NCBI GenBank assembly: GCA_949299935.1
Contig: CASGCE010000033.1
Coordinates: forward strand, 62,001-126,000
Length of the DNA stretch: 64,000 nucleotides
DNA from: an uncultured bacterium
Lineage (GTDB): Bacteria; Cyanobacteriota; Vampirovibrionia; Gastranaerophilales; Gastranaerophilaceae
Direction: 5' to 3'
In this document: in pieces, positions 437-51,968 of the stretch
Position numbering within the stretch: the stretch's first letter is position 1
Layout of the letters: every line of letters begins with the position of its first letter
The notes under the pieces: model-generated
Database searches by the model: none
The model's input: the letters and a program-made list of their open reading frames with translations, nothing else
Told to the model about the DNA's origin: nothing
Made by a program: the position numbers and the translations under genes

Positions 437-481
437 GAATCCCGCAATAGATTCATAGGGTATGAGAAGAGATAGTTGTAC

Positions 482-507
482 AAGGGAATGAAAATTCCCT
501 TTTTTAT
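482..507 (+). terminator. Intrinsic terminator after sepF
   Basis: Eight-base-pair stem AAGGGAAT / ATTCCCTT with a GAAA loop, followed by a T-rich run. It ends the sepF transcript just before the promoter of the pilin gene. Confidence 0.8.
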
Positions 508-535
508 TGCCAAAAGTTTAGTAAAGTTGTATAAT
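507..535 (+). promoter_or_regulatory. Sigma70-type promoter of the G9-tract pilin gene
   Basis: TTGCCA (507-512), a 17-base spacer, and a perfect TATAAT (530-535). The ATG at 561 follows with a good ribosome binding site (GAGGTGGAAAGCA), so transcription and initiation signals are intact although the reading frame is interrupted. Confidence 0.7.
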
Positions 536-560
536 AGAAATATGAATGAGGTGGAAAGCA

Positions 561-1336
561 ATGAATAGCGTAAGTCTTAACGGGGGGGGGCTACTCCTCT
601 AAGTAGAAATAGCAAGGGTTTTGACCCTGAAGATATTGGGTGTTGTAATTCAAAACACTATTCAAAAAAAGGCTTTACCTTAGCGGAGGTATTGATAACG
701 ATAGGAATAATCGGTGTAATTGCGGCACTGACAATACCAACCTTGATAAGTAATTATAATAAAAAAGCCACTGCCGTACGTGTAAGAAAGACTTATGCAG
801 AGCTTGTTCAGGTCATTAAGCTGTCAGAGATTGAAAACGGTTCGATGGACACTTGGGATTTTCCGGAAAGTCGCAGTAAGGATAATACGCGAGCATTTGC
901 GAGAAAATATATTCTTCCGTATTACAAAAATTGTTTTGAATGCAGTGAGGGTTCAGATTACCGTTGCGGTCAAGCAATCAGCGGGCATGGAGTCAACTAC
1001 GGTCTTAGCAGTAGTGTAGGTATATCTGTTGTTGCAGAGCCAAGCACTTCTAAAAAAATTAATATTACCATTTCTGTACATAATTTCGGTTCCAGAACAC
1101 CCAGACAAGGGCGCGACTGGTTTTATTTTACTATTTCAAATGGTGTTATACAGCCTTTCGGGTGGCGTAAAGGCCTTACAAGAGAAGATATACTGGAGGA
1201 AAAAGTTCTTTATACTTGTAAATCCGTACAAAGAGAAAATCCTAAGGACGGAAGTGCTTTTTATTATGACAGATATGGCTGTACAGCATTATTTGTGCTT
1301 GACAATTGGGAGTTTAAAAACGATTATCCTTGGTAA
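561..1336 (+). CDS. Type IV pilin-like protein, frame interrupted at a G9 tract
   Basis: Pilin/pseudopilin with the class III signal motif KKG^FTLAEVLIT (about 665-700) followed by a hydrophobic helix (GIIGVIAALTIPTLIS) and a soluble C-terminal domain containing cysteines. The initiating ATG (561) with its ribosome binding site reads MNSVSLNGGG and then stops at 600-602. The pilin frame has a TAA at 578-580 and no ATG, GTG or TTG between that stop and TTG 692, which lies inside the signal motif. A net +1 base in the G run (582-590) joins ATG 561 to the pilin, giving 258 residues with a 38-residue leader. Known pilins are cleaved by a prepilin peptidase and assembled by PilB/C/Q machinery such as that at 59-64 kb. 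Whether the gene is switched off, expressed by slippage, or mis-sequenced cannot be decided from one consensus. Confidence 0.8.
582..590 (+). repeat. G9 homopolymer in a pilin leader (locus 1)
   Basis: Nine consecutive G in an AT-rich genome, flanked by TAAC on the left and C-T-ACTCCTCTAAG on the right. The same block recurs at 51181-51189. A small hairpin, AGGGT / ACCCT (615-628), lies 24 bases downstream. Candidate slippage site controlling the pilin frame. Confidence 0.85.
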
Positions 1337-1344
1337 GGTGTTTG

Positions 1345-1376
1345 AAAGATAAAAATTCATTTTTATCTTTTTTGTT
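1345..1376 (+). terminator. Intrinsic terminator after pilin gene 1
   Basis: Perfect 11-base-pair A/T-rich stem (AAAGATAAAAA / TTTTTATCTTT), loop TTCA, followed by TTTGTTG. It overlaps the -35 region of the nadK promoter. Confidence 0.65.
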
Positions 1377-1403
1377 GTTTATTTTTAAGTCTTGTGGTAT
1401 AAA
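1375..1403 (+). promoter_or_regulatory. Leaderless-type promoter of nadK
   Basis: TTGTTT (1375-1380), 17-base spacer, TATAAA (1398-1403), then exactly six bases to the ATG at 1410. Transcription would start at or next to the start codon. No Shine-Dalgarno sequence is present. Confidence 0.55.
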
Positions 1404-29466: not shown

Positions 29467-30180
29467 TTAATCACAAGTATCTTTACCGGTAAGACTTAGA
29501 CCGTCACATTTCAGGTAATTTAAATTACCTTTCAAAATTACCCATTCAGTGCAAGCATTGCCGTTGACGTACAAACTGTCTGTCAAATTACATCGTTGAG
29601 GGTTAAACTTATATGGAAGAACGTATCCTTCATTATTTATGGCAAATAAAAAAATATCTCTGCCTGTTTGATTAGGAGGATTTGGGCCGTTCACGTCTAT
29701 TCGGATAGTACCACAGGCATTTTGAGTCTCATATTGAGATGTGCAGGAACCCGTTGATTGAATTTGGATGTATGTTCCGTTTAAAAGTTTTGCCCCTGTA
29801 TAGCGCAAAATCCACATCGATGCAGCTTTCCCTGTTAGATTACCATATGTGTATGCGTAAGGTCGACATTCTAAGATCCCAGTGCATGTAAAAACAGTTT
29901 TTAAATACGGAATAATTTTTTCAAAAAGCATTGGAGAAAACGTTTTATAATTTAATTCCCCATCGTCTGTAATTGCACCGGTCAGCCATGTGTTTATAGG
30001 TCCATGTTCAACGACGGCCATTTGTACTGCGCTATTTAATAAAGTATAGGCTTCTTTAACTCTGGTTACGGTTTGTTTTTCCTGATAATTTGAGATAAGA
30101 GTAGGTATTGTCAAAGCTGCTACAATCCCAATAATACCCAATGTTATTAAAACTTCCGCTAAGGTGAAACCGCGTTTCAT
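29467..30180 (-). CDS. Type IV pilin-like protein with normal short leader
   Basis: A 237-residue pilin/pseudopilin with the leader MKRG^FTLAEVLITLGIIG, a hydrophobic helix (AALTIPTLISNY) and a soluble domain with several cysteines. The frame is open further upstream, but ATG 30180 follows AGGGGG and gives a canonical four-residue leader. In contrast to the two G9-tract pilins (561 and 51154) this gene needs no frameshift. It is convergent with adhE and shares its terminator. Substrate for the Pil machine at 15.7 and 59 kb. Confidence 0.88.
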   Translation of the reverse strand: MKRGFTLAEVLITLGIIGIVAALTIPTLISNYQEKQTVTRVKEAYTLLNSAVQMAVVEHGPINTWLTGAITDDGELNYKTFSPMLFEKIIPYLKTVFTCTGILECRPYAYTYGNLTGKAASMWILRYTGAKLLNGTYIQIQSTGSCTSQYETQNACGTIRIDVNGPNPPNQTGRDIFLFAINNEGYVLPYKFNPQRCNLTDSLYVNGNACTEWVILKGNLNYLKCDGLSLTGKDTCD

Positions 30181-30248
30181 ATTACCCCCTAAAATTGATT
30201 TATAGTATGCTATAATATAACCATAAATCATCGATTAACCGTGTTATT

Positions 30249-51127: not shown

Positions 51128-51153
51128 TTATGTTGTTACTATGGAGGAAAGCG

Positions 51154-51968
51154 ATGAGTTTGTCTGGTTGCAGAAATAACGGGGGGGGGCGACTCCTCTA
51201 AGCCAACGTAGCCGTTGGATTCATGACAATAGGGATTGGTTAAAGTTATCAAGTGATTACTTAAAATTTAGAAAAGGATTTACCTTAGCAGAGGTGCTTA
51301 TAGCACTCGGAATAATAGGTATAGTTGCTGCACTTACTATACCGACTCTCGTTAAGAAATATCAAGAAAAGATAATGATAACTAAAATCAAACAGGGGCA
51401 CTCTTTGTTAATGAATGCTGTACAATTGTACATGGCTAAGAATAATTGTGTTAATGTTTTATGCTTATTTGATACAAAAAAAACTTCTGAACAAGTTGCT
51501 GCAGAGTTAGGTGAAGTATTAAAAGAGGCAAAATTATGTAAAACTGGTGATAATGATAAATTGTGCAAAGTATATTATTGTAAGGGCAACAAACCTATAA
51601 AAGTAGACGGATTTTATGCAGCCGGAGATGTTTTTCATGCTGCGGGCAGAGTATATCTTCCTAACGGCATGACTTTTCAAGTTTCTCAAAAAAGTGAATG
51701 CCCAAAGACAGAAGTATATATTATCCGAGATGAGAACGGATATGAAATCGGTACGCAGGAAAGGATTTCCGATTTATGTGCATACGTCTATATGGATATA
51801 AACAATGTTGAAGAACCCAATCAGTTCGGTGCAGATACTTATAGATATAATGTTGTATATTCGGGTAAAATATTGCCTCATGATGAAAAACTTTTGAATA
51901 ATGCGCTTTTGTTTAACAAACTTGAATATACACCGTATAATATTGGAGATCCGATTACTGAGGACTAG
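51154..51968 (+). CDS. Type IV pilin-like protein, frame interrupted at a G9 tract
   Basis: Pilin/pseudopilin with RKG^FTLAEVLIALGIIGIVAALTIP (about 51270-51345) and a soluble domain with eight or so cysteines. ATG 51154 has a strong ribosome binding site and reads MSLSGCRNNGGG, then stops at 51199-51201. The pilin frame has TAA at 51177-51179 and no ATG, GTG or TTG until GTG 51294, inside the signal motif. A net +1 in the G run (51181-51189) gives 271 residues with a 42-residue leader. The structure repeats that of the 561 gene in every respect. The end overlaps the convergent GT9 gene by four bases. Confidence 0.8.
51181..51189 (+). repeat. G9 homopolymer in a pilin leader (locus 2)
   Basis: Nine consecutive G, preceded by TAAC and followed by C-G-ACTCCTCTAAG, as at 582-590. 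A perfect hairpin CCAACG / CGTTGG with loop TAGC (51203-51218) begins 13 bases downstream. Candidate slippage site. Confidence 0.85.

Follow-up and report, generated by a model that had tools for sequence, protein, structure and literature searches.

Organization of the two window loci

The DNA analysed here, hereafter the window, is a stretch of 64,000 nt from the 1.68 Mb genome (coded G000; genomes carry G### codes and sites L### codes) of an uncultured Gastranaerophilales bacterium, and contains two type IV pilin-like genes, each preceded by a short translated leader and a tract of nine guanines (G9). Runs of at least seven G occur in the window at these two loci only, corresponding to 6 overlapping matches compared with 1.28 in shuffled sequence. 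Both loci comprise (i) a Shine-Dalgarno (SD) sequence and an ATG start codon, (ii) a short leader, (iii) the G9 tract, (iv) a post-tract block and (v) the pilin reading frame, in the order SD-ATG(561)-AATAGCGTAAGTCTTAAC-G9(582-590)-CTACTCCTCTAAG at locus 1 and SD-ATG(51154)-...-AATAAC-G9(51181-51189)-CGACTCCTCTAAG at locus 2 (Table 1). The block shared by the two loci reads TAAC (578-581), the tract, C591, T592 and ACTCCTCTAAG (593-603) at locus 1, and TAAC (51177-51180), the tract, CG and ACTCCTCTAAG (51192-51202) at locus 2, and the two 26-mers differ at one base, as an earlier note on this DNA had described.

The ATG frame reads NGGGLLL before a TAA stop (600-602) at locus 1 and NNGGGRLL before TAA (51199-51201) at locus 2, so that the stop just past the tract recognized by the earlier note is present in both cases, three codons downstream. 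The pilin frame is shifted by -1 relative to the ATG frame, and the two would be fused if the tract had 10 or 7 bases. It is closed immediately 5' of the tract by TAA (578-580 and 51177-51179) and open past it, where the peptide beginning NGGGATPLS, previously noticed in the shifted frame, constitutes a genuine long leader. Both encoded proteins display the type IV N-methylation motif, scoring above the PF07963 and TIGR02532 cut-offs, with a GFxxxE prepilin motif at the mature N-terminus.

Table 1. Features of the two tract-bearing pilin loci and of a comparison pilin, in window coordinates
Feature	Position	Strand	Basis
Shine-Dalgarno AGGTGG, locus 1	549..554	+	sequence
Start codon and short leader MNSVSLN (frame 0), locus 1	561..581	+	sequence
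G9 switch tract, locus 1, OFF length	582..590	+	sequence, frame comparison
Post-tract block C-N-ACTCCTCTAAG, locus 1, including frame-0 stop TAA 600-602	591..603	+	conserved among copies
Pilin frame, locus 1: long leader ATPLSRNSKGFDPEDIGCCNSKHYSK, then KGFTLAEVLITIG and mature pilin	590..1336	+	PF07963 E=1.3e-05; TIGR02532 over cut-off
Terminator-like inverted repeat AAAGATAAAAA-N4-TTTTTATCTTT, 3' of locus 1 pilin	1345..1370	+	read from sequence
Shine-Dalgarno GGAGG, locus 2	51143..51147	+	sequence
Start codon and short leader MSLSGCRNN (frame 0), locus 2	51154..51180	+	sequence
G9 switch tract, locus 2, OFF length	51181..51189	+	sequence, frame comparison
Post-tract block, locus 2, including frame-0 stop TAA 51199-51201	51190..51202	+	conserved among copies
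Pilin frame, locus 2: leader ATPLSQRSRWIHDNRDWLKLSSDYLKFR, then KGFTLAEVLIALG and mature pilin	51189..51968	+	PF07963 E=1.4e-06; TIGR02532 over cut-off
Third window pilin, for comparison: ordinary short leader MKRGFTLAEV, without tract	29467..30231	-	PF07963 E=2.1e-06

A genome-wide family of tract-bearing pilins

Pattern searches of G000, followed by the individual reading of each site, place the window pair in a family dispersed over the genome, as the earlier note had thought possible, comprising 48 distinct tract-plus-pilin sites, all of them before pilin-like genes: 42 whose coding strand carries the G run (class A) and six whose coding strand carries a C run (class B), the pilin leaders of the latter reading MxKxxxKAVQIVAPP.... 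The exact block is present in 30 copies, besides further variants. Exact G9 or C9 runs in G000 also number 48, a count matching the site set, and nearly all such runs of the genome thus lie in pilin leaders. A block scattered outside pilins without frame relation, or one lacking conservation, was looked for; essentially all sites proved to be pilins, and the block is kept across the genus.

The frame relation of start, tract and pilin is preserved in nearly all copies of the family. Between the tract and the FTLxE motif, a stretch of 97 nt on average, the pilin frame is open at 44/44 sites, and each of the other two frames at 1/44. The 5' leaders differ in sequence and measure 18, 21, 24 or 27 nt, a multiple of three in 36/38 G-tract copies as called, with one of the two exceptions (L075) attributable to a wrong start call; the ATG-to-tract distance of locus 1, 21 nt, conforms to this rule. 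The frame link between tract and pilin that the earlier note proposed thus extends well beyond the window. Codon-position differences in the leaders of close pairs amount to 9/6/10 by position and give no evidence of constraint on the leader protein; the open pilin frame is the stronger test. Starts that lie in the pilin frame and follow an SD occur 5' of the tract at 3/48 sites, where the in-frame copies L006 (G10) and L066 (G7) account for two, and within the leader at 1/48, so rarely that the pilins have no normal start except by way of the tract. By comparison, the TAA closing the pilin frame before the tract, correctly reported for both window loci, is frequent without being a conserved part of the design, being present in 27/42 G-tract copies of G000 and 9/85 from other species.

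In terms of frame state, 38 G9 and six C9 copies of G000 are one base short of the length that joins leader and pilin (ON), and one G10 and one G7 copy are ON; these calls rest on the choice of start by SD and codon, with L036, L056 and L075 uncertain or doubly broken. At L056, a T9 run in the leader produces a stop 5' of the G9 tract, leaving the gene doubly out of frame. Class B (L070-L077, e.g. L072), with a coding-strand C9 after M-x-K-x-x-x-KAVQIV, mirrors the G class and is likewise one short. A different G9/G10 tract is located in a small upstream open reading frame (ORF), e.g. MxKTLAKTSSQVGGGVP, at L235 (G000:C9), L178 and L179 (G012) and L150 (G008); at the last three sites, it precedes a pilin with its own short leader MTKRFGFTLAEV.

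Tract length variation

Across 15 genomes of the genus, exact G/C runs of 8, 9 and 10 number 51, 512 and 137, a distribution resembling that of phase-variable poly-G tracts in Campylobacter (PMC6321876). The block class, about 104 copies from several species, includes 78 G9 copies in the OFF state, 12 G10 and three G7 copies in the ON state, and G8 and G11 copies that are OFF in the third frame; since this sample is enriched for G10 sites, its length counts are no frequencies. Among the G000 sites, which were not selected by length, 2/48 are ON.

Length also differs between orthologous loci. Five loci from five species that share the same upstream gene, with mature pilins 65-70% identical, carry G9 (L048), G10 (L079, ON), G9 (L092), G9 (L094) and G11 (L108), and a second set, likewise with a common upstream gene and with mature pilins 66-72% identical, carries G9 (L047, OFF), G10 (L101, ON) and G9 (L107, OFF); some orthologous tract loci share the downstream gene as well. 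The tract has changed at the DNA level between orthologous genes. In G006, G9 is maintained in the main class and G10 in a separate one, which is likewise a single base short of ON. The sites of G014, e.g. L131 and L242-L244, read TTA-G9-TAG, with a stop directly after the tract and another frame offset (ON at 8 or 11).

Probable phase variation and alternative explanations

The sites are likely to be poly-G/C phase-variable (contingency) type IV pilin-like genes, mostly OFF and switched by DNA slippage. Ribosomes would start at the SD-ATG, read a leader of 5 to 9 codons and enter the G9 or C9 tract. Nine bases, the most frequent length, would soon bring them to a stop and yield no pilin, and the addition of one base (or removal of two) by DNA polymerase slippage would fuse leader and pilin frame. 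With about 48 genes mostly OFF, each cell would express a small random subset, and the pilus surface presented in the gut would keep changing. The genomes directly show the anatomy, the relation of the frames, the openness of the pilin frame, the variation in length among paralogues and orthologous loci, and the natural ON copies at G10 and G7; length change within populations, expression of the ON copies and a role in surface variation are presumed from them. As in phase-variable loci generally, a mononucleotide tract of at least eight lies in a translated region, sets the frame by its length, and varies in length among homologues. Because tract length differs between copies and orthologous loci (G7 to G11) and alters the frame, slippage in DNA is favoured over the mRNA slippage considered by the earlier note, and the similar behaviour of coding-strand C-tracts fits a mechanism acting on double-stranded DNA.

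Several observations weigh against this reading. Under free drift a third of the copies should be ON, compared with 2/48 in G000 (binomial P ~1.6e-6, copies not being independent), a deficit implying that something holds the frame one base short. The G10 class of G006, equally one short, is also predicted by programmed slippage. MutS1 is present in the genus, so slippage rates may be modest; for the same reason, missing mismatch repair was rejected, as regards MutS1, as the origin of the tracts. Finally, the comparison genomes comprise one per species, mostly consensus sequences of metagenome-assembled genomes (MAGs), and homopolymer lengths in assemblies may differ from those of the population (PMC9187656). 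The excess of copies OFF by one base reflects either a costly and rare ON state with +1 changes favoured, or a programmed +1 slippage that feeds the pilin.

The latter possibility, in which RNA polymerase slips +1 at the 9-base tract or the ribosome slips -1 on G_GGG_GGG or C_CCC_CCC, would supply a fixed small share of pilin from each copy without DNA change. It accommodates the uniformity of length 9 and of the one-short frame in independent classes (G9, C9 and the G10 class of G006); the slippery heptamers fit the zero frame, as G_GGG_GGG does at 582-590 and 51181-51189, and the conserved post-tract pyrimidines can pair with the G-tract. Length, however, is not fixed: tracts next to the same block range from G7 to G11, and several copies are in frame as they stand. 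Orthologous loci disagree in both length and frame, G014 has another offset (phase 1), and a mode of nine is also that of Campylobacter phase variation. A conserved hairpin at the distance of programmed ribosomal frameshifting is lacking, and a search for a conserved stimulatory structure 5-9 nt 3' of the tract found none (z near 0). We regard programmed slippage as unlikely. Much the same doubt attaches to its fuller form, in which the tract would be a programmed as well as a mutational slippage site: OFF-length genes would yield all of the approximately 48 pilins in small, constant amounts through a +1 RNA polymerase or -1 ribosome slip aided by pairing between G-tract and pyrimidines, with selection holding the copies one short.

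Two further explanations were weighed. OFF copies might serve as silent stores donating by gene conversion to an expressed pilin, as pilS does to pilE in Neisseria, and the homogenized leaders do point to exchange among copies: median leader identity is 37% within G000 versus 13% between G000 and G009, compared with 25% and 26% for the mature pilins. Yet every copy is equipped with an SD and a start of its own and a pilin frame kept open, conversion would be inefficient between mature domains as diverse as these (median identity 25%, with some cross-species orthologues at 65-72%), and each site bears a single G run versus the four required for the Neisseria G-quadruplex, making such stores quite improbable. 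The single G run also led to the rejection of a G-quadruplex switch of the pilE kind. That a dispersed repeat, one of the possibilities raised by the earlier note, is a mobile element lying before pilins by chance and without frame function is hardly credible: sepF and nadK adjoin without a pilin in seven relatives, consistent with addition or loss of a gene-with-tract unit, but leader length varies in threes only, no stop interrupts the pilin frame within the block, and the sites are essentially confined to pilins.

Relation to known systems

The earlier statement that no element of such form had been described proved too strong. For the pili of Bifidobacterium breve UCC2003 (bbr_0113, bbr_1889), experiments have shown that replication slippage at a G-tract fuses a short ORF with a pilin ORF lying in another frame (PMC9187656). 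The likeness includes the short upstream ORF with its own SD, the G-tract (G10 or G11 there), the out-of-frame pilin ORF and the setting in a gut commensal; the B. breve genes, however, encode LPXTG sortase pilins in operons, at one or two loci per genome (PMC9187656), whereas the present ones are single type IV pilin-like genes outside sortase operons, at about 48 loci with G9 or C9, in another phylum. The Campylobacter phasome is similar in its many intragenic poly-G/C tracts, modal at 9 and then 10 (53% and 26% of phase-variable poly-G lengths, respectively), in AT-rich small gut genomes, and in a larger strain set its ON share is near the neutral-drift value (PMC6321876). By contrast, the system described here involves one gene family with a fixed tract place in the leader, mostly OFF, in the presence of MutS1.

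In Neisseria, pilC, which encodes a tip adhesin and no pilin, carries a poly-G tract, and pilE varies by gene conversion with a G-quadruplex that requires four G runs. Type IV pilus variation, the poly-G tract of pilC and the many pilin copies are thus points of likeness. The pilE/pilS arrangement consists of silent partial copies without start or promoter and a G-quadruplex 5' of a single expressed gene; the present copies have an SD, a start and whole pilin frames, and whole pilin genes each possess a switch. The G-quartet mechanism of pilE is mentioned in PMC4235727. Programmed transcriptional slippage and -1 frameshifting, as in insertion sequences (PMC5009743, PMC6211511), likewise join two ORFs by one base at a homopolymer; here, the tract length varies among copies and orthologues, and in-frame copies exist.

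A search of the literature collection consulted found no paper on a tract-pilin system in these bacteria. Most likely, this is poly-G pilin switching of a known kind, encountered on an unusually large scale and in a lineage where it is new. The unusual aspects are (i) that one gene family makes up virtually the whole tract set, (ii) that the most frequent state is OFF, a single base short of ON, and (iii) that leaders are homogenized within species while the mature pilins are orthologous. This genus of gut bacteria, related to cyanobacteria but not photosynthetic, carries about 50 tracts in a 1.7 Mb genome, almost all of them within a single pilin family. It provides a natural setting for testing how a commensal diversifies its pili and why most copies sit exactly one base short of ON. 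Dozens of pilins are probably mis-called, as truncated or with wrong starts, when these genomes are annotated automatically.

Distribution, site gain or loss and probable leader exchange

The exact block is present in 12/16 genomes of one genus, G000 included, and in 0/43 other genomes; the named records carrying it are nearly all Candidatus Gastranaerophilales MAGs. Other members of the same genus (G014, G007) have the tract with different flanks, and the design recurs in at least one pilin (L144) of G018, from another genus of the family. Long G/C runs are abundant in every examined member of the genus except G005, which has few.

At locus 1, the unit (window 437-1391) sits between sepF and nadK and brings a promoter-like region, SD, tract, pilin and terminator-like repeat. 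Since sepF and nadK are neighbours without a pilin in seven relatives, the tract-pilin unit appears to have been gained or lost whole at that site.

Orthologous loci match in their mature pilins and often not in their leaders (7-17% identity in several pairs). Together with the identities given above, this suggests that the 5' switch module is copied or gene-converted among paralogues within a species, which would account for the shared block with differing flanks at the window pair. The contrast is weaker in G006, where several leader classes occur (17% within the genome versus 20% against G000). At L040, L131, L186, L196 and others, the long leaders read dispersed repeats in frame without stops (CHPEAKPKDLRRF, HPELVSGS, RDHSGAGG, RYYGTKA).

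The post-tract block and other signals

Six positions following the tract (within window 593-601 and 51192-51200) hold a pyrimidine in 98.7% of cells over 106 copies, and encode residues as unlike as P, L, S and F. Pyrimidines kept despite such unlike residues suggest a constraint at the nucleic-acid level, perhaps pairing with the G-tract or the SD. A G9CGACT core, sense in the G class and antisense in the C class of G000, was considered as a common 14 bp site or as a means of trans-RNA pairing, and is treated as chance because it is not kept elsewhere (G9CGTCT versus G9TGACT in G006).

The hairpins that the earlier note placed after each tract exist, AGGGT-TTTG-ACCCT at 615-628 and CCAACG-TAGC-CGTTGG at 51203-51218, but are unlike each other and do not form a conserved part of the block: among the 42 G-tract copies of G000, the first is full in eight and weakened in 14, the second is found in three, and 17 have neither. 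Post-tract RNA stability shows no excess over shuffled sequences (mean z +0.38), and a conserved RNA hairpin was accordingly rejected. A promoter-like element, TTGACC-N17-TATAAT (TGTAAT at locus 1), is located just 5' of an in-frame ATG (MKNYSSRKGFTLAE) at window 621-649, L018, L022 and many other copies, and is degraded in those reading CCN at that place.
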